In this document: in pieces, positions 18,931 to 28,100 of the stretch
Layout of the letters: every line of letters begins with the position of its first letter
Numbering within the stretch: position 1 is the first letter of the stretch
DNA from: an uncultured Rhodobiaceae bacterium
Lineage (GTDB): Bacteria; Pseudomonadota; Alphaproteobacteria; RS24
Reading direction: 5' to 3'
Assembly (NCBI GenBank): GCA_937876775.1
Contig: CALEFA010000031.1
Coordinates: forward strand, 1-56,457
DNA length: 56,457 nucleotides
Position numbers and translations under genes: made by a program
The notes under the pieces: generated by a model
The model's input: only the letters and a program-made list of their open reading frames with translations
What the model was told of the DNA's origin: nothing
Database searches by the model: none

Positions 18931-19939
18931 ATGGAAAAAATTCTTGTTACGGGTGCGACCGGCTTTATCGGCCTACATTGTATCGCCCAATTATTGCAGC
19001 AGGGCTATAGCGTTACCGGCACTGTGCGCTCCCCTAGCCGTATTGATGAAGTCAAACAGGCTTTATCGGAACAGCAAATATCGACTGATAACCTCTCATT
19101 TGTAGAAGCAGATTTGACCAAAGACGATGGCTGGGATGAAGCTGTATCCGGCTGTGATTTCGTGATGCATGTCGCCTCGCCATTCATTATTGGTGTGCCG
19201 AAACATGAGGATGAACTGATTGTTCCCGCTGTCGAGGGAACAAGGCGGGTTATTGAGGCAGCCATTAAACAGGGCGTTAAAAAAAGTCGTGCTGACATCC
19301 AGTTGCGCCGCCATTACCGAAGCGCATAATGGACAAACCCATTTTACCGAGGCTGATTGGACAGACGCCTCCAGCGCCAAAACACCCGCCTATTACAAAA
19401 GTAAAACACTGGCTGAGCAAAAGGCTTGGGATCTCATTGGGGCGCAATCAACAACGAAATTGGCCGTCATCAATCCAGCCGGTGTTATCGGCCCAACTCT
19501 CACAGACGACATTGGGACGGCCAACGAGTTTATCCTGCAGATAATCGACGGCAAGGTCCCGGGTTGCCCGAAACTGCATATTGGTTTCGTTGATGTGCGC
19601 GATGTGGCAACCGCGCATATTCTCGCCATGCAAAAGTCGGAAGCCGATGGAGAACGTTTCATCATCAGTGAGCGCGAATATTGGTTTAAAGATTTCTCAG
19701 CCGTGTTGAAAGCGGCGGGCTATAAAAAAGCACCATCGCGGGAAATGCCGAATTGGTTGGTTAAAGTTTTCGGCCTTTTCGATCCGGCAACGCGGCAAAT
19801 GGCGCAAATGGTCGGATCAGAAAAGTTCACCCCCTCAGATAAGGCCAGAAAAATATTAGGTTGGAATCCGCGTAACACTGATGAGGGCATTCGCGACACG
19901 GCCATTCAAATCGTCGAAAAAGGCATGGTCAAACTATAA
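18931..19939 (+). pseudogene. NAD-dependent epimerase/dihydroflavonol reductase-like, frameshifted at an A7 run
   Basis: Two frames make one extended SDR. Frame one (18931 to the stop at 19329) gives KILVTGATGFIGLHCIAQLL and the N-terminal half up to EAAIKQGVKK. The next frame (to 19939) continues KVVLTSSCAAI, has the active-site YYKSK, then VINPAGVIGPTL and the substrate domain. The junction is a run of seven A at 19279-19285; removing one A restores a 335-residue protein. It is either a disrupted gene, a phase-variable or slippage-expressed gene, or a base-calling error in a homopolymer. Codon choice and a clean end (QIVEKGMVKL) suggest the second half is not decayed. A GGAG Shine-Dalgarno precedes the start. 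Confidence 0.85.
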
Positions 19940-20063
19940 CGCAAAGACCGAGCGAGGCCACGGCTGCCGACATACGACTTTGTGTCATCAGTCGGCTTCG
20001 CCTTTAAGGGCGCACGACCTATATTCATGAGCGAGCTTAAGACTAAGTTTGAGGGAGTTGCCC

Positions 20064-21479
20064 GTGTCACAGCCGATTATTGTTTGGTTCCGTCAAGATT
20101 TGCGTCTTGATGATAATATGGCGGTCGCCGCCTGCGTTGAAGCCAACGCCCCAATGATTGCCCTGTTCATTGATGACCGCCAGCATGAGCGGCAAGCTGG
20201 CGCCGTTTCGCTTTGGTGGCGTGACCAATCTTTGCAAGCACTCGCCGATGAATTGCAGCGCCGCGGCAGCCAATTAATCTTGCGTGAAGGCGACGCCGCC
20301 AGCCAGTTAAATCAGCTTATTGACGAAACAAACCCCCAAGCCGTGTTTTGGAATCGCCAATATTACGCTGAAAGCATCGCCCGCGATACCGCGATTAAAG
20401 CGGATTTACAGGCTCGACAGATAAATGTCGAAAGTTTCAACTCAACATTACTTTTCGAGCCTTGGCAAATTCGTAGCAAAACCGCCAATACGCCATTCAA
20501 AGTCTTCACCCCATTTTGGAAAGCCTGCCAAACACATGGCATTGATACGCGCATTTGGGATGCGCCTATGCAATTTCTCGCCCCAAGTAAATGGCCGCAA
20601 AGTCTTGCTCTAACCAAGACCAACCTCCCCGAAGGTGCACACGCGCTCGACCAATGGCAACCTGGCGAAGCGGGAGCGCGAAAGACCCTTCACCGTTTTC
20701 TGAGTGAGAACATTCATGGCTATGCCGACGGACGTGATTTTCCGGCCAAACCGGCAACCTCTCGCCTAGCCCCACACTTACGCTGGGGAGAAATCAGTCC
20801 ACGGCGGCTTTTTGCTGAAACCAGCGCTGCCCCCGTGTCAGATAATGATCAGAGGAAGTTTTTTGCCGAGATTGGTTGGCGCGAATTTTCCTATCAAACC
20901 TTGTTTCACAACCCAAATCTGAAAACCACTTGTTTGCAGCCCAAATTCGAGGCCTTTCCATGGCGCGAGGGTGCCGAGGCCGAGGATGATTTTGAGGCCT
21001 GGAAAAACGGCACCACTGGTTATCCGATTGTCGATGCAGGCATGCGCGAATTGCGACAAACCGGCTATATGCACAATCGAGTGCGGATGATTGCCGCCTC
21101 CTTCTTAATCAAACATTTGTTGATTGACTGGCGGCGTGGCGAAGCATGGTTTTGGGAACGTTTGGCCGATGCTGATCCGGCAAATAATACCGCCAGCTGG
21201 CAATGGGTGGCTGGTTGTGGGGCTGACGCCGCCCCCTATTTCCGGATTTTCAACCCGATCATTCAGGGACAAAAATTTGATCCAGAGGGACACTACACCA
21301 AACGCTATATACCCGAGCTCACTGGCTTATCTGGGAAAATGCTTTTCTCGCCATGGCTTGCCAAATCTGACCTTTTGGAGAACGCCAATGTTCAGTTGGG
21401 ACAGTCCTATCCAAAGCCGATTGTTGAGCATGACTTTGCCCGCAATCGCGCCCTAGATATATTTAAAGCGCTGGCTTAG
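20064..21479 (+). CDS. phr: Deoxyribodipyrimidine photolyase (class I)
   Basis: Photolyase repairs UV-induced pyrimidine dimers with blue light and FAD. The 471-residue protein has IVWFRQDLRLDDN at the start, an N-terminal antenna-binding domain, and the FAD/DNA-binding core GYPIVDAGMRELRQTGYMHN, then HLLIDWRRGEAWFWERL and NNTASWQWVAGCG. The start is GTG at 20064: GAGGGAG lies six bases upstream and the protein then begins SQPIIVWF. It heads a rightward run with an FAD oxidoreductase, DUF1365 and a Cfa-type gene. That context recalls the sigma-E/ChrR photo-oxidative response. Confidence 0.93.
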   Translation: MSQPIIVWFRQDLRLDDNMAVAACVEANAPMIALFIDDRQHERQAGAVSLWWRDQSLQALADELQRRGSQLILREGDAASQLNQLIDETNPQAVFWNRQYYAESIARDTAIKADLQARQINVESFNSTLLFEPWQIRSKTANTPFKVFTPFWKACQTHGIDTRIWDAPMQFLAPSKWPQSLALTKTNLPEGAHALDQWQPGEAGARKTLHRFLSENIHGYADGRDFPAKPATSRLAPHLRWGEISPRRLFAETSAAPVSDNDQRKFFAEIGWREFSYQTLFHNPNLKTTCLQPKFEAFPWREGAEAEDDFEAWKNGTTGYPIVDAGMRELRQTGYMHNRVRMIAASFLIKHLLIDWRRGEAWFWERLADADPANNTASWQWVAGCGADAAPYFRIFNPIIQGQKFDPEGHYTKRYIPELTGLSGKMLFSPWLAKSDLLENANVQLGQSYPKPIVEHDFARNRALDIFKALA

Positions 21480-21543
21480 CCCAAGAATCTTCTTATAAAT
21501 AAAACGAGATGTTATTTACGTTTGTCCGCGTCGGGAGTGTTGA

Positions 21544-22851
21544 GTGAAAATTGCGATAATTGGTAGCGGTATTTCTGGCAATGTCGCTAGCTACCTTCTT
21601 GCCCCACACCACGACATCACCGTCTATGAAAAACGCGACCGCACTGGCGGTCATAGCGCCACAAAATATGTCGATTACCACGGCGATGGTCAAAAAACCG
21701 CCGTTGATACTGGCTTCATTGTCTATAATGAACTGAACTATCCGGGCCTTACTGGCCTGTTTTCTGAGCTTGGCGTCGACACCACTGCCACAGATATGAG
21801 TTTCGCCTTTTCAGCAGATAATGGCGGCTTTGAATGGTCTGGCCAGACGCTGGCAACGGTATTTGCGCAAAAAAGTAATATTTTGAAACCAAAATTTTGG
21901 CGCATGCTGCGCGACATCTTTAAGTTTAACAAATATGCCGCCAGCGATTACGAAGCCGATAAGGTCGGTGATTTATCACTCGGCCAATGGCTGGCGCGCT
22001 ACAGCGTTAGCGCGGTTTTCAAAGACCGCTATTTACTGCCAATGGGCGCCGCGATTTGGTCGACGCCGGTCGAGCAGATCTTGGATTTCCCAGCCGCAAA
22101 TTTCCTGCAATTTTTCTACAATCATCGTCTTATTAACGCAGACCGCCCGCAATGGCGCACTGTTTTGGGCGGTAGTCAGCAATATGTCAACAAATTGACC
22201 CAACGTTTTGAAACGAACATTCGGCTCAATAGCCAAGTGACCCGTGTCGAACGCGCGGCAAATGGCGTGGCGGTTACGACTGCAGATGATCGGCAGGTCT
22301 ATGATCAAGTAATTTTTGCCACTCATTCCGACCAAGCCCTAGCGGTTTTGCACGATGCCGATGAAACCGAGCACTCGGTTCTCTCCGGCGTTCGCTATCT
22401 CCCCAATCAAGTCTACTTACACCGCGACCGTCGCCTGATGCCGCGCCGCCAGAACACCTGGTCTGCGTGGAACTATATCACTGACACATCACCCAAATCT
22501 GAGGGATCAGCGCCGATTATGACGGTGAGTTATTGGATGAATCGGTTGCAGAACATTGACCCGTCAACACCGCTTTTTGTGACTTTGAACCCGCCCGTTC
22601 CGCCGGCCGAAGAGCTAACATTTGGCCACTATGAATATGATCACCCGCAGTATGACCACACCGCCCTTCAAGCGCAAAAGGACTTGCCAAAAATTCAAGG
22701 TAAGCGCGGTGTTTGGTTCTGCGGCGCTTGGACTGGCTATGGTTTCCATGAAGATGGACTGCAATCGGCTTTACGCGTGTGTCGGGGCATTGCGCAGCTG
22801 ACGGAAAACAGCGAGATGGTTACCGATTTTCCCTTAATGGCGGCAGAATGA
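21544..22851 (+). CDS. FAD-dependent oxidoreductase (amine oxidase-like)
   Basis: A 435-residue flavoprotein with the dinucleotide fold KIAIIGSGISGNVASYLL, then the acidic end of strand 2 and the second FAD motif in VYEKRDRTGGHSAT, and a C-terminal FAD segment GVWFCGAWTGYGFHEDGLQS. This family (often annotated NAD/FAD-binding protein, COG2907) usually lies beside DUF1365 and a Cfa-type methyltransferase, as here. It is thought to act on membrane fatty acyl chains; the exact reaction is not known to me. It starts at GTG 21544. Its stop overlaps the DUF1365 start as ATGA, so the two are translationally coupled. Confidence 0.85.
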   Translation: MKIAIIGSGISGNVASYLLAPHHDITVYEKRDRTGGHSATKYVDYHGDGQKTAVDTGFIVYNELNYPGLTGLFSELGVDTTATDMSFAFSADNGGFEWSGQTLATVFAQKSNILKPKFWRMLRDIFKFNKYAASDYEADKVGDLSLGQWLARYSVSAVFKDRYLLPMGAAIWSTPVEQILDFPAANFLQFFYNHRLINADRPQWRTVLGGSQQYVNKLTQRFETNIRLNSQVTRVERAANGVAVTTADDRQVYDQVIFATHSDQALAVLHDADETEHSVLSGVRYLPNQVYLHRDRRLMPRRQNTWSAWNYITDTSPKSEGSAPIMTVSYWMNRLQNIDPSTPLFVTLNPPVPPAEELTFGHYEYDHPQYDHTALQAQKDLPKIQGKRGVWFCGAWTGYGFHEDGLQSALRVCRGIAQLTENSEMVTDFPLMAAE

Positions 22852-23621
22852 CGTCATTAAACAACAATCACCTTTACTTCGGACAAGTACGACACGCTCG
22901 ATACCAACCCAAGCCGCACCGTCTGAATTATAGAGTTTTCTCCGCGCTTTTTGATGTCGATGATATTGACGCTGGAACATTGGGACAAGAACTCCACTGG
23001 TTCTCACTTAATCGTTTCAATTTGTTCAGTTTTTATTTGAAAGACCATGGCGCCAAAGACACCTCCCCCTTACGCCCGTTCATCAATAAATTACTGGCTG
23101 AAAAGTCCCTGACATCCCCTGATAAAATTCTAATGATGTGCTATCCGCGTATTCTCGGCTATGCCTTCAACCCAATAACTGTTTACTACTGCCTTTATGG
23201 CGAGAACATAGGCGCCATGGTTTATGAGGTACGCAATACATTTGGCGAAGACCATATTTATGTTGCCTGCCTTAAAGAAAACAGCACGGAAACCGCCGGT
23301 TTACATAGTCGAGACAAGGTCTTTCACGTGTCACCATTTATTGGCATGACGGCGCAATATCACTTCTCAACCGCCGTTCCAGATGAAAAATTGCGGCTGG
23401 TGATCCGCGAAACCGAGCAGCAAGCCCCACTTTTAGTGGCAAGTTTTGTCGGACAGCGACAGCCGTTCACGGACGCGACCCTAGTGAAAGCTTTTTTCAA
23501 ATACCCGCTGATGACTGTGAAAGTCATGCTGGCAATCCACTATGAAGCGGTAAAATTAATTTTCAAAGGTGTTGGCCTTGCCAAACGCCCCAAAAAACCG
23601 CAGAATCGCATCAGTTATTAG
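22848..23621 (+). CDS. DUF1365 family protein
   Basis: This 257-residue protein matches DUF1365 by its start (LYFGQVRHARYQPKPHRLNYRVFSALFDVDD) and the segments MCYPRILGYAFNPITVYYC, VYEVRNTFGEDHIYV and HVSPFIGMTAQYHF. The function is unknown. It is nearly always found between an FAD oxidoreductase and a Cfa-like methyltransferase, and in Rhodobacter related genes are induced by singlet oxygen. I chose the ATG at 22848, which overlaps the previous stop; the frame is open further upstream but that part lies inside the FAD gene. No signal peptide is visible. Confidence 0.88.
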   Translation: MTSLNNNHLYFGQVRHARYQPKPHRLNYRVFSALFDVDDIDAGTLGQELHWFSLNRFNLFSFYLKDHGAKDTSPLRPFINKLLAEKSLTSPDKILMMCYPRILGYAFNPITVYYCLYGENIGAMVYEVRNTFGEDHIYVACLKENSTETAGLHSRDKVFHVSPFIGMTAQYHFSTAVPDEKLRLVIRETEQQAPLLVASFVGQRQPFTDATLVKAFFKYPLMTVKVMLAIHYEAVKLIFKGVGLAKRPKKPQNRISY

Positions 23622-23641
23622 GAATAATAAAAAGGTGAGAG

Positions 23642-24856
23642 ATGAGTGAGAAACCAATAGAAACCAATATGAAAGGCCTCTCCCCAGCCGCGCGGGTGAT
23701 TTTTTTCATGCTCAACCGCCTGCGCCATGGCCAGTTATTGGTTACACTGCCCGATGGACGACAGTTTTCTTTTGGTCAAGCCGTCAAAGGCCAAGATGCG
23801 GCGCAGATGTTTGTCGAGAAAAAGGGGTTTTTCCGTCGGCTATTACGCAAAGGCAGTTTGGGGTTCGGTGAGGCCTATATGGACGGAGAGTGGCGCACAC
23901 CTGACTTGGCCCTTTTACTTTCTGTCTTAAACAAAAATATGAGCCACCTGTCTCAAACTATTGATTCAAATAGATTTATCGCCTTTTTTAATCGTGTTCT
24001 TCACCTCTTAAAGCCGAATACGCGAGCTGGATCTAAAAAGAATATCCATGCCCATTACGACCTTGGCAATGCGTTTTATGAATTGTGGCTTGATCGAACA
24101 ATGACCTACTCATCGGCCCGCTTTAGCAACCAGCAAATGAGTCTGACCGAGGCGCAAAACGAAAAGTACCGCAGTCTGGCGGAGAGCGCGAACATCGGGC
24201 CAAATGATCATGTGCTGGAAATTGGTTGCGGTTGGGGTGGTTTCGCAGAGTTTGCGGCCACCGAAATTGGCTGCAAAGTGACTGGCATCACGATTTCCAA
24301 TGAGCAATTGACCTATGGGCAAGAGCGCATCGCCAAAGCAGGCTTAAACGACCGCGTCGAGTTAAAGTTTTGCGACTATCGCGATGTCACTGAAAAATAC
24401 GACCGCATTGTTTCCATTGAGATGTTTGAGGCGGTTGGCGAAAGTTATTGGCCGAGCTATTTTTCGCAATTAAAAAATTGCCTCAAATCAGATGGAAAAA
24501 TTGGCCTGCAAATCATAACCATTGCCAATGAACGGTTCCCAACCTATCGCAAAAGCGCTGATTTCATTCAGAGGTATATTTTTCCGGGTGGGATGCTGCC
24601 GTCCCCTGACAAGCTCTATCAACAATTTGATGAAGCCGGACTGAAATTGGATGCGCAATCGGACTTTGCGGCTGATTACGCCCGCACTTTGGCCGAATGG
24701 CGCCATAAATTCCTTGAAGTTTGGCCGACTGTCGAAACCCTCGGTTTTGATCAACGGTTTAAGAATATGTGGGAATATTACCTAGCCTATTGCGAGGCGG
24801 GTTTTGCTTCCAAGAGTATTGATGTCTCTCATTTCACGCTCAGCCATAAGGCCTAA
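23642..24856 (+). CDS. Cyclopropane-fatty-acyl-phospholipid synthase family methyltransferase
   Basis: A 404-residue SAM-dependent enzyme of the Cfa family, acting on unsaturated acyl chains in membrane phospholipids. Visible are NIHAHYDLGNAFYELWLD, the SAM loop VLEIGCGWGGFAEFAA and IVSIEMFEAVGESYWPSYF with the catalytic Glu. At the position of the active-site Cys of E. coli Cfa (YSCAYW) this protein reads YSSARF. The Cys is therefore absent, as in many genes of this neighbourhood type, and the product need not be a simple cyclopropane. GGTGAGAG precedes the ATG. Its TAA stop overlaps the convergent SDR stop by four bases. Confidence 0.88.
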   Translation: MSEKPIETNMKGLSPAARVIFFMLNRLRHGQLLVTLPDGRQFSFGQAVKGQDAAQMFVEKKGFFRRLLRKGSLGFGEAYMDGEWRTPDLALLLSVLNKNMSHLSQTIDSNRFIAFFNRVLHLLKPNTRAGSKKNIHAHYDLGNAFYELWLDRTMTYSSARFSNQQMSLTEAQNEKYRSLAESANIGPNDHVLEIGCGWGGFAEFAATEIGCKVTGITISNEQLTYGQERIAKAGLNDRVELKFCDYRDVTEKYDRIVSIEMFEAVGESYWPSYFSQLKNCLKSDGKIGLQIITIANERFPTYRKSADFIQRYIFPGGMLPSPDKLYQQFDEAGLKLDAQSDFAADYARTLAEWRHKFLEVWPTVETLGFDQRFKNMWEYYLAYCEAGFASKSIDVSHFTLSHKA

Positions 24857-25626
24857 CGCTTCGTCAGCCCGACTAAGCGAACGTAAGCCCCTCGCGGCAG
24901 CATATTGATGGCCCGCAGAAAAAAGCTGAAACGCTTCGGGAATGATATGTGGGTTTTCCCCTTGGCCAGCCCTGCCACCATGCGTTTGGCGGCTTCTTCG
25001 GCGGAAATAATGAACGGCATGGGAAATGAATTAACATCGGTTGCTGGTGTTTTAACAAACCCTGGGGCAATCATCGACACGCCGACACCAGAGGCCGCCA
25101 GATCCATCGCCATCGACTCACCCAAATTAAACAAAGCCGCCTTGCTGGCGCCATAGGCAGCCGAGGTTGGCAGACCGCCATATCCGGCCACTGACGATAC
25201 CAGTGCTAAACGGCCCTTCCCTCGCTCAACCATTAACGGCACCACTGGTGACATGGCATTTATTGTGCCGGTCAGATTAACCTCAAAAGTTCGATCAAAA
25301 ATCGTTGCGTCAAATTCTGGCAGAGCGGTTGGCAAATAAATGCCAGCATTGAGCACCGCTAAAGCAATCGGCCCCAGCTCAGCTTCAATGGCCATGACAA
25401 CATTGTGCATAGCCGCGCGGTCTGTGACATCGCCAACAAAAGCGTGAATGTGGGGGTGCTGCTGCGCAATCTCGTCAAGTGCCGTCTGTCGACGAGCTGA
25501 AATGGCCACTTGCCATCCTTGCTTTGCCATTTCGAGCGCCAAAGCCGCGCCAATACCGGAGGAAGCGCCGGTAATCCAAACACAACCATCATTTGGCTTC
25601 ATCGCTTGAGGTCGAGTTTTAGCCAT
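24853..25626 (-). CDS. Short-chain dehydrogenase/reductase
   Basis: A complete classical SDR: VWITGASSGIGAALALEMA, then LAVLNAGIYLP, the Ser of LALVSSVAGYGG, and the catalytic YGASKAALFNLGESMA. It probably reduces or oxidises a hydroxyl or keto group with NAD(P). The start is set at ATG 25626, just past the upstream stop; the frame extends six codons further upstream (25644) but would then overlap the DUF6134 gene. It runs in the same direction as the DUF6134 and ChrR-like genes and converges on the Cfa gene, so it probably belongs to the same response. Confidence 0.87.
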   Translation of the reverse strand: MAKTRPQAMKPNDGCVWITGASSGIGAALALEMAKQGWQVAISARRQTALDEIAQQHPHIHAFVGDVTDRAAMHNVVMAIEAELGPIALAVLNAGIYLPTALPEFDATIFDRTFEVNLTGTINAMSPVVPLMVERGKGRLALVSSVAGYGGLPTSAAYGASKAALFNLGESMAMDLAASGVGVSMIAPGFVKTPATDVNSFPMPFIISAEEAAKRMVAGLAKGKTHISFPKRFSFFLRAINMLPRGAYVRLVGLTKR

Positions 25627-25628
25627 GG

Positions 25629-26363
25629 TTACGGTTGCTTCCAACTGGCAGGTGGCGGCAAATCAGAGAATTTCACGGGGCGAATGGCAATCGTTTCATT
25701 GCCCAAGCTGAACTCGGTGCGCACCCATTGACCAGCGGGCGTATACCAAATGTTTAAGGCCAAATCGCCAGTCAGTTGATAGTGAACAGCGTCAACAGTG
25801 CCGTCAGGGGTTGTCACAGTGTCGACCCCCAGATTGGCGATCTCGACGTTCAAAATGCGGCCATCTTGCGTGCTTAGTAAAGCATTTTGCCGGATGAAAT
25901 TCGGGTTAAAATAGCTGGTTGTCAATATCGGCGCGCGAACCGGCAACTTGGCTTTCGTTGCTTTGCCTTGCAGCGCATCGCCCTCAAGGCGCAAATCGAC
26001 AATTTCATCGTCGCCATTGTTATAAGTTTTGGAAACAATCGACTGCAAGGCCCCATCTTTCCAAACCTCTTGATTAGCATGGATATAGCGGAACAGCGTG
26101 ATAAAGCCGAATTTCAAATCAATGCGAATATAGACATCAACGACCAGTTGATTGTTATCATCGCGACTGAAACTCAAAGTTTGAAAGCCAATACGTTTAT
26201 CTTTACGGACAATCTCATAAGATAATTGATTGTTTTCCGGAATGCCGCCAAGCCAATCTTGTGAAATATCTGCAGAGCCGCTAGCGGCCACAGGCCGAAG
26301 CAAACATGCGGTCACAAACATAAGGGCTAAAAACTTAACCGGCAAAGAAATCTCGTGCGACAT
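25629..26363 (-). CDS. DUF6134-like exported protein
   Basis: The protein begins with a signal peptide (hydrophobic KFLALMFVTACLL, cleavage near VAASGSA), then a beta-rich domain with SYEIVRKDKRIGFQTLSFSR, which matches the DUF6134 type as I recall it. The function is unknown. It could handle lipids or lipophilic compounds in the periplasm, but this is only a guess from structure and neighbours. The start is uncertain: ATG 26363 gives a good signal peptide and overlaps the ChrR-like gene by 29 bases, while ATG 26396 adds 11 residues. No clear Shine-Dalgarno precedes either. Confidence 0.7.
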   Translation of the reverse strand: MSHEISLPVKFLALMFVTACLLRPVAASGSADISQDWLGGIPENNQLSYEIVRKDKRIGFQTLSFSRDDNNQLVVDVYIRIDLKFGFITLFRYIHANQEVWKDGALQSIVSKTYNNGDDEIVDLRLEGDALQGKATKAKLPVRAPILTTSYFNPNFIRQNALLSTQDGRILNVEIANLGVDTVTTPDGTVDAVHYQLTGDLALNIWYTPAGQWVRTEFSLGNETIAIRPVKFSDLPPPASWKQP

Positions 26364-26994
26364 GGGCAATCGAACCGGCAAAACGCACGCCACCATCTGT
26401 TACCGCGAGGCAAATGCAATCTTCATCGCCTTGAGCACGCGGACGGTGTTTCACATCATGATCGGCAACCGCGACATCACCGCGCTGGAACAGCCGCTTG
26501 CCATCGCTAAAGGCGCCACGCAACACCAATGTCGCTTCCACACCATCATGGCTGTGACGCGGCGCGGCTTTACCTGGTTTGATTTTCAGGAGCTTAACTT
26601 TTTCCCCGCGATCACCGATCGGCAATGTCATTTGACGAACACCCGGATATGCAAAGCGCCATTTGCCATTTTCAATCGGCTGATTGAGAAATTGACGCAG
26701 AGGTAATGGTAAATCTTCATTGATTTCCTCAACCGGTTTTTCCTCGGCTGCGGCTGGCGCTTCGTCAAGCAAGCGCTGCAAATCTTCCAGCATCATCGGT
26801 GACACAGCGACCGGCTCTGCTTCATTTAGCAAAACGCCGTTCAAACTCTCAAGCTCTTCGAGGCGATGACGTGCATCGGACGACAAGGTAACGTAGCTAG
26901 CGACCAATACCGCCATGCCATGATTGAGGCTACCGGCGGCATATTGCTGCAATAGATTTTGTAAGCCTTCGCTTGAATTTTCACCCACGCCCAA
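26335..26994 (-). CDS. chrR: ChrR-like cupin protein with degenerate anti-sigma zinc site
   Basis: The 219-residue protein aligns with ChrR, the zinc anti-sigma factor that holds the ECF sigma RpoE until singlet oxygen appears. The C-terminal cupin keeps all four metal ligands: H147, H149 and E153 (PRHSHDGVEATLVLRG) and H183 (DHDVKH). In the N-terminal domain the ligands equivalent to H31, C35 and C38 of Rhodobacter ChrR read Tyr34, Ser38 and Ala41 (VASYVTLSSDA), and no His is present near residue 6. No sigma gene is adjacent. It starts at TTG 26994 with AAGGGG six bases upstream. It may bind sigma without zinc, or serve only as a cupin sensor or enzyme. Confidence 0.78.
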   Translation of the reverse strand: MGVGENSSEGLQNLLQQYAAGSLNHGMAVLVASYVTLSSDARHRLEELESLNGVLLNEAEPVAVSPMMLEDLQRLLDEAPAAAEEKPVEEINEDLPLPLRQFLNQPIENGKWRFAYPGVRQMTLPIGDRGEKVKLLKIKPGKAAPRHSHDGVEATLVLRGAFSDGKRLFQRGDVAVADHDVKHRPRAQGDEDCICLAVTDGGVRFAGSIAHVARDFFAG

Positions 26995-27101
26995 AAAACA
27001 CCCCTTAAATACGTCACTTGCTTGGTTATATGTTATATACGATATAGCTTATCGATTGGATTTGACCAGTCTAATTTTTGTTTTGCCTAAGGAGGCCTAT
27101 T
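26995..27101. promoter_or_regulatory. Divergent promoter region between ChrR-like gene and cysteine synthase
   Basis: The 107-base gap between two divergent genes is AT-rich in its centre (around 27028-27055), where promoters would be expected. It holds the AAGGGG ribosome site of the leftward gene and TAAGGAGG (27088-27095) of the rightward gene. I looked for the ECF11-type pattern TGATCC followed by TAAGT and did not find it here. Confidence 0.4.
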
Positions 27102-28100
27102 GTGAATTTTCACCATTCAATGATCGACGCCATTGGCAACACACCGCTGATTAAATTAAACAAAGCCTCCGAGGAAACCGGTTGCACAATTTTGGGCAAG
27201 GCTGAGTTTATGAACCCTGGGCAGTCGGTGAAAGACCGCGCGGCGCTGTTCATCATCCGCGACGCTGAACAAAAGGGCCTACTTAAGCCCGGTGGCACGA
27301 TTGTTGAGGGCACAGCGGGCAATACAGGTATTGGTATTGCACTGGTCGCTAATGCGCTGGGCTATAAATCAGTAATTGTCATTCCTGAGACCCAAAGCCA
27401 GGAAAAGAAGGATATGCTTCGTCTTGCTGGTGCCGAGTTGATTGAAGTTCCTGCCGTGCCCTATCGCGACGACAATAATTACGTTAAATATTCTGGCCGT
27501 CTGGCAGCTGAACTGGCGGAAAAATCTGATAAAGGTGCCATTTGGGCGAATCAATTCGACAATATTGCCAACCGTCAGGCCCATATTGAAACCACTGGGC
27601 CCGAAATTTGGCGCCAGACCGACGGCAAAGTTGACGGCTTTACTTGCGCCATTGGCACGGGCGGCACATTGGCCGGCACGGGTCTCTATTTAAAGCAGCA
27701 AAATGCCAATATTCGCATAGCCGCCGCTGACCCCATGGGCGCAGCCATGTACCATTGGTACAAACATGGCGAATTAAAATCTGAAGGCACATCAATTACT
27801 GAAGGCATTGGGCAAGGCCGCGTGACAGCGAATTTACAAGACGCGCCGATTGATGACGCTTATCAAATTGCAGACGCCGAAGCGCTACCAATCGTTTTTG
27901 ACCTACTGACTGAAGAAGGCCTGTGCCTTGGCGGATCAAGCGGCATTAACATTGCCGGTGCTAAGCGCATGGCCGCAGACCTCGGCCCTGGCCATACGAT
28001 TGTGACAATTCTATGCGACTATGGCACGCGCTATCAGTCGAAATTGTTCAATCCAGAATTTTTACGGCAACAAGGTCTGCCTTGCCCAAGCTGGTTGTAA
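27102..28100 (+). CDS. cysK: Cysteine synthase family PLP enzyme
   Basis: A 332-residue fold-type II PLP enzyme: IGNTPLIKLNKASEETGC, the PLP lysine in MNPGQSVKDRAA, the phosphate/substrate loop EGTAGNTGIGIALVA, and GTGGTLAGTG. It makes cysteine from O-acetylserine and sulfide, or a related beta-replacement. The segment PYRDDNNYVKYSGRLA is shared with a longer alphaproteobacterial CysK-like subgroup. The GTG at 27102 is chosen because TAAGGAGG lies just upstream; the frame is open from 27078. A GNAT gene follows 14 bases later and is probably co-transcribed. Confidence 0.88.
   Translation: MNFHHSMIDAIGNTPLIKLNKASEETGCTILGKAEFMNPGQSVKDRAALFIIRDAEQKGLLKPGGTIVEGTAGNTGIGIALVANALGYKSVIVIPETQSQEKKDMLRLAGAELIEVPAVPYRDDNNYVKYSGRLAAELAEKSDKGAIWANQFDNIANRQAHIETTGPEIWRQTDGKVDGFTCAIGTGGTLAGTGLYLKQQNANIRIAAADPMGAAMYHWYKHGELKSEGTSITEGIGQGRVTANLQDAPIDDAYQIADAEALPIVFDLLTEEGLCLGGSSGINIAGAKRMAADLGPGHTIVTILCDYGTRYQSKLFNPEFLRQQGLPCPSWL

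Follow-up and report, generated by a model that had tools for sequence, protein, structure and literature searches.

ChrR is the anti-sigma factor that restrains a bacterial switch for light and oxygen stress. The usual rpoE-chrR circuit is self-activating, with positive autoregulation of the sigma factor. In R. sphaeroides, zinc binding by the anti-sigma domain (ASD) of ChrR is needed for sigma-E inhibition, according to PMC6852236, which cites Newman 2001; the role of the ASD zinc has been described as unknown (PMC6852236), and work on a model peptide points to unfolding of the domain when zinc is lost (PMC6432622). The published ECF11 promoter consensus is TGATCC-N16-CGTA (PMC5507510, PMC4336711), and rpoHII is also driven by R. 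sphaeroides sigma-E (PMC6852236). PMC7380195 and PMC3818230 place UfaD (RSP1091) and UfaO (RSP1090, DUF1365) in the furan fatty acid pathway and report that loss of RSP1090 blocks the singlet oxygen-induced turnover of ChrR in R. sphaeroides. Among anti-sigma domains in general, zinc-free class I members are common, and mixed groups have been reported (PMC7406223). Our literature search found no paper on recurrent ASD ligand loss in ChrR or on the split-locus promoter pattern described below, although both may be partly known. Here, we describe a locus at which a zinc-independent ChrR-type anti-sigma factor quite probably inhibits an unlinked ECF11 sigma that drives chrR and rpoH2 but not itself, with the cupin as the likely sensor.

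In the window, by which we mean the whole stretch of 56,457 nucleotides analysed, the relevant features are the following:

20049 to 21479, plus strand: DNA photolyase (phr), by Pfam.
21544 to 22851, plus strand: UfaD-like FAD protein (Amino_oxidase), by Pfam; role by analogy with RSP1091 (PMC7380195).
22845 to 23621, plus strand: UfaO-like DUF1365 protein (PF07103, 242 bits; UfaO carries DUF1365, PMC7380195).
23642 to 24856, plus strand: CFA synthase or UfaM-like methyltransferase (PF02353, 294 bits).
24853 to 25644, minus strand: short-chain dehydrogenase (SDR), by Pfam and synteny; ends the chrR-DUF6134-SDR gene run.
25629 to 26396, minus strand: DUF6134 protein (PF19630), by Pfam and synteny; overlaps the 3' end of chrR.
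26335 to 26994, minus strand: chrR, with a zinc-ligand-free ASD at about residues 4-77 and a cupin at about 94-206, by TIGR02451, PDB 2z2s_B/2q1z_B and ligand columns.
27038 to 27063, minus strand: predicted ECF11-type promoter AAATCC-N16-CGTA, 44-69 bp upstream of the chrR start codon, at a family-conserved position.
27078 to 28100, plus strand: cysteine synthase A (cysK), divergent from chrR (NF007989, 572 bits, cut-off 387).

The chrR gene has a TTG start and encodes a protein of 219 residues that passes the ChrR family model TIGR02451 as a full-length profile match (174.7 bits, cut-off 124.5) and aligns with R. sphaeroides ChrR (2z2s_B) over residues 14-206 with an E-value of 1.1e-35. As the initial annotation had described, the cupin metal ligands H147, H149, E153, and H183 are intact, being invariant in an alignment of 14 sequences, and all four zinc ligands of the ASD are gone. 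Alignment with ChrR homologues places Y34, S38, and A41 at H31, C35, and C38 of R. sphaeroides ChrR, and an equivalent of H6 is absent, no His being found among residues 1-14 or encoded by the 18 in-frame codons before the start (residues 1-10 of R. sphaeroides ChrR were entered by hand in our alignments, and H6 is placed according to PMC6852236). The H-x3-C-x2-C motif and N-terminal His that mark a zinc-binding anti-sigma (ZAS) domain are thus lacking. An AlphaFold model computed from the alignment (mean pLDDT 75) consists of three confident N-terminal helices and a weaker fourth, followed by the cupin. The ChrR chain of the SigE complex is its top PDB match (2q1z; Foldseek E 3e-15), and against this sigma-bound chain it reaches a VIA Z of 17.2 over residues 7-200.

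The gene next door, previously read as a cysteine synthase, is confirmed by its profile match as cysteine synthase A. Throughout the lineage the locus is constant: the phr, ufaD-like, ufaO-like, and CFA genes are convergent with SDR-DUF6134-chrR, and cysK lies divergently on the other side of chrR. The DUF6134 gene is likely in the same operon as chrR, and its true start is probably downstream of the ORF start. The plus-strand row at 20049-24856 (photolyase, UfaD-like, UfaO-like with DUF1365, CFA/UfaM-like), found beside chrR lineage-wide, probably represents a cluster for furan fatty acids and photorepair. Nearby, at 18931-19939 (plus strand), an NAD-dependent epimerase-like gene is read in two frames that overlap, pointing to a frameshift or an error of assembly. 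At two loci of genus g4 (L177, L178), a DUF3833 gene with its own TAATCC-N16-CGTA site lies downstream of the CFA gene.

A chrR homologue was found in 24 of the 28 genomes of the lineage. Loss of chrR was considered for two well-assembled genomes (G002, G009) and rejected; because the neighbouring cysK is also missing there, an assembly gap is likelier than gene loss. All lineage homologues with a recovered N-terminus carry Y/F, S/E, and A at the positions of H31, C35, and C38, every complete cupin retains its four ligands, and the ligand-free state is fixed in four genera, the complete loci all having an intact reading frame. The dN/dS values (ASD 0.07, linker 0.21, cupin 0.036) indicate strong purifying selection on the ASD, in which many family-typical residues beyond the zinc site are retained. 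Judged from these substitution patterns, the ASD is not decaying; however, its divergence relative to the cupin is somewhat greater than in canonical ChrRs, which counts against an anti-sigma reading. A scan of the genome collection gave a sole match, the sister locus JAHEIG010000110.1 from a 'Rhodobiaceae bacterium' MAG.

The initial annotation had also stated that there was no neighbouring sigma factor. This holds for the genes adjoining chrR, but the genome-wide search does find an ECF11-type sigma. The genome, 1.72 Mb long and with a completeness rating of 100%, contains five Sigma70 region 2 matches, namely a 661-residue frame that is presumably RpoD, one RpoH2-type sigma, one 311-residue RpoH-like sigma (judged by eye), and two ECFs. 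The single ECF11/RpoE-type sigma, at G000:C3:1599-2204, lies on a contig other than that of chrR and is the closest to R. sphaeroides SigE (2q1z_A, 176 bits, E 7.6e-51, versus 88 bits and E 1e-23 for the next ECF). Most lineage genomes have an ECF11 sigma (22 matches above 250 bits), and chrR and this sigma never share a contig in those where both were found. No recognisable anti-sigma gene appears beside the C3 sigma in the neighbour annotation, the downstream gene, here and in several relatives, coding for a zinc-type, quinone oxidoreductase-like dehydrogenase. The window ChrR is the only ChrR of its genome, where the ECF11 sigma is retained. The second ECF sigma, at G000:C57:8785-9399 (minus strand, locus L005), is nearest to NF004113, and the 166-residue product of the next gene may be its membrane anti-sigma.

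The search for an ECF11-type promoter motif, suggested earlier as a check, returned sites before chrR in 18 of 22 lineage loci and before rpoH2 in all 22 lineage genomes read. At chrR, these 18 loci have the exact N16 spacing and CGTA, 16 with one mismatch and two, including the window, with two. A one-mismatch site would arise by chance in a region with a probability of about 0.003. The window site by itself is non-significant, with 0.5 expected by chance, and its weight rests on conservation in the family; the loci are related and their counts non-independent, and part of the count is explained by shared descent, as the spacer too shows conservation within genera. The CGTA form is lacking in the four loci of genus g5 (L019-L022), where L019 reads AAATTC-N16-CATA at the same position (by eye) and the genomes read keep the rpoH2 site. 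The rpoH2 site is the strongest: it reads TGAACC or TGATCC-N16-CGTA, lies 46-49 bp from the start codon, and varies in its spacers, the copy in the sister genome G001 being perfect. In the genome of the window it is:

G000:C20:2468-2493 (locus L073), plus strand: ECF11-type promoter TGAACC-N16-CGTA, 22 bp before rpoH2.

Upstream of the sigma gene, the ECF11 motif was found in none of 22 lineage loci. Within the window, the patterns tried gave no perfect TGATCC promoter before phr, ufaD, or the CFA gene, and the only site in the window is the two-mismatch one at chrR. TAATCC/TGAACC-N16-CGTA sites also precede 388-390-residue proteins at four loci in two genera (L193, L194, L197, L206), which look like efflux-pump membrane fusion subunits.

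We compared the lineage with 90 other alphaproteobacterial ChrR loci from outside it. All four ASD ligands are kept in 66 and two or fewer in 24, a number that includes one badly aligned sequence (L139, no cupin letters), which was left out of the tree and should leave the ligand counts. The initial annotation had named, as evidence that would speak against its claim, many canonical anti-sigma ChrRs with the same missing ligands, and this is largely the case: about a dozen ChrRs among the 90 have 0-1 of the four ligands and, a few hundred bases upstream, an ECF11-like sigma in the same orientation. In the tree, the lineage ChrRs group with other zinc-free ChrRs, sigma-linked and unlinked alike (SH-aLRT 84). 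The ligand states require at least 11 changes, only two of them forced by well-supported branches alone. A chrR without a sigma gene in the flank read (orphan) occurs at 14 of the 90 loci. The idea that ligand loss is associated with being unlinked to sigma was rejected, the difference in the class set (6/14 versus 18/76) being non-significant (Fisher p = 0.19).

Several orphans (L144, L146, L153, L156, L157, L169, L170) share the divergent cysK neighbour, most of them with SDR and DUF6134 genes, and zinc ligands are kept in some of these and lost in others; this cysK-linked arrangement, with a perfect ECF11 promoter, is found repeatedly in the class. Of the 14 class orphans, 13 have the ECF11 motif before chrR, and none was found upstream of the unlinked sigma in nine genomes that carry such an orphan; throughout the class, perfect sites precede sigma-linked as well as orphan chrR.

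In four genomes (G141, G143, G237, G066) an orphan coexists with a sigma-linked ChrR, so an orphan is not in every case necessarily the main inhibitor. This coexistence favours an alternative in which ChrR no longer binds sigma and is instead a stand-alone cupin enzyme or sensor of the ECF11 regulon, acting, e.g., on oxidised lipids, with the bundle kept for another contact. An ECF11 promoter before chrR suits any regulon member, conservation is stronger in the cupin than in the ASD, and chrR adjoins a lipid-modification gene cluster, all of which speak for such a protein. However, an ASD dN/dS of only 0.07 and the retention of many family-typical residues outside the zinc site would be harder to explain in this way, as would the presence of just one ChrR in a genome that retains the sigma and the pairing of zinc-free ChrRs with sigma elsewhere. 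We consider the alternative unlikely, though worth keeping in mind. Of the two options in the initial annotation, the stand-alone sensor or enzyme is the less likely, and the zinc-free anti-sigma with a distant partner is supported by the unlinked ECF11 sigma, the chrR and rpoH2 promoters, and the ligand-free, sigma-linked ChrRs.

The promoter evidence would be uninformative on the ECF11 sigma if the TGAACC/TAATCC-N16-CGTA sites before chrR and rpoH2 were read by the second, NF004113-related ECF (C57). The TGAACC variant of the -35 element is intermediate between known ECF -35 motifs, and a search for a promoter of the second ECF itself identified none, which leaves room for this explanation. 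It is nevertheless improbable, given that TGATCC-N16-CGTA is the published ECF11 consensus (PMC5507510, PMC4336711) and that perfect copies occur at rpoH2 of G001 and before linked and orphan chrR across the class. Decay of a zinc site no longer under selection, leaving the sigma to run free, could account for the loss of all four ligands but is hardly credible for a ligand-free state fixed in four genera under strong purifying selection, with intact frames in the complete loci.

For the anti-sigma reading, we infer sigma binding, signal-triggered release, and cupin sensing by this ChrR as follows. The N-terminal helical bundle, with an aromatic residue in place of the ligand His and Ser and Ala in place of the two Cys, would fold and bind sigma without zinc. 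The zinc requirement in R. sphaeroides counts against a zinc-free domain, which would therefore need a different stabilisation of the bundle; it may be held by packing rather than zinc, as in RseA and RskA (PMC6852236, PMC7406223). The partner would be the only ECF11 sigma of the genome, inhibited in trans from another contig. Once free, the sigma would transcribe chrR (via 27038-27063) and rpoH2 but not its own gene, so that the loop would have negative feedback but lack the positive autoregulation seen in the usual rpoE-chrR operon. Singlet oxygen, a peroxide, or a lipid product is probably sensed at the intact cupin metal site, whose ligands are kept in every complete family member. The more specific proposal, i.e., that singlet-oxygen control operates through a zinc-free-ASD ChrR with the cupin as sole sensor and negative feedback only (chrR and rpoH2, not the sigma gene, under the sigma promoter), has in our estimate an even chance of being right.

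Natural ChrRs that have lost the ASD ligands and kept those of the cupin would allow the roles of the two zinc sites to be told apart by comparison. If ligand-free ChrRs still respond, the cupin is sufficient for sensing. A chrR split from its sigma, with the promoter on chrR only, would be a naturally occurring variant, with negative feedback, of a circuit that is normally depicted as self-activating. If both cupin-only sensing and the rewired circuit are true, ASD zinc is dispensable for inhibition and sensing in natural ECF11 systems.

With R. sphaeroides RpoE-ChrR (ECF11; PDB 2Q1Z, 2Z2S), the system shares the two-domain fold, the cupin ligands, the promoter class, and the rpoHII target, as well as photolyase and furan fatty acid genes among the core regulon or neighbouring genes. 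In contrast to R. sphaeroides, the window ChrR is without ASD zinc ligands and unlinked to its sigma, no ECF11 promoter was found before the sigma gene, and chrR lies opposite cysK, with DUF6134 and SDR genes downstream. Rhizobium etli likewise has an orphan chrR apart from the sigma gene, with no rpoE nearby, and the excerpt of that report (PMC3818230) is silent on ligand loss, on the cysK/chrR-DUF6134-SDR arrangement, and on a promoter that follows chrR rather than sigma. E. coli RseA and M. tuberculosis RskA, which have zinc-free class I ASDs, bind an ECF sigma through a helical bundle without zinc (PMC7406223, PMC6852236), as is predicted for the window ChrR. However, RseA and RskA are not of the ChrR family, whereas the zinc-free domain in the window is joined to a ChrR cupin.
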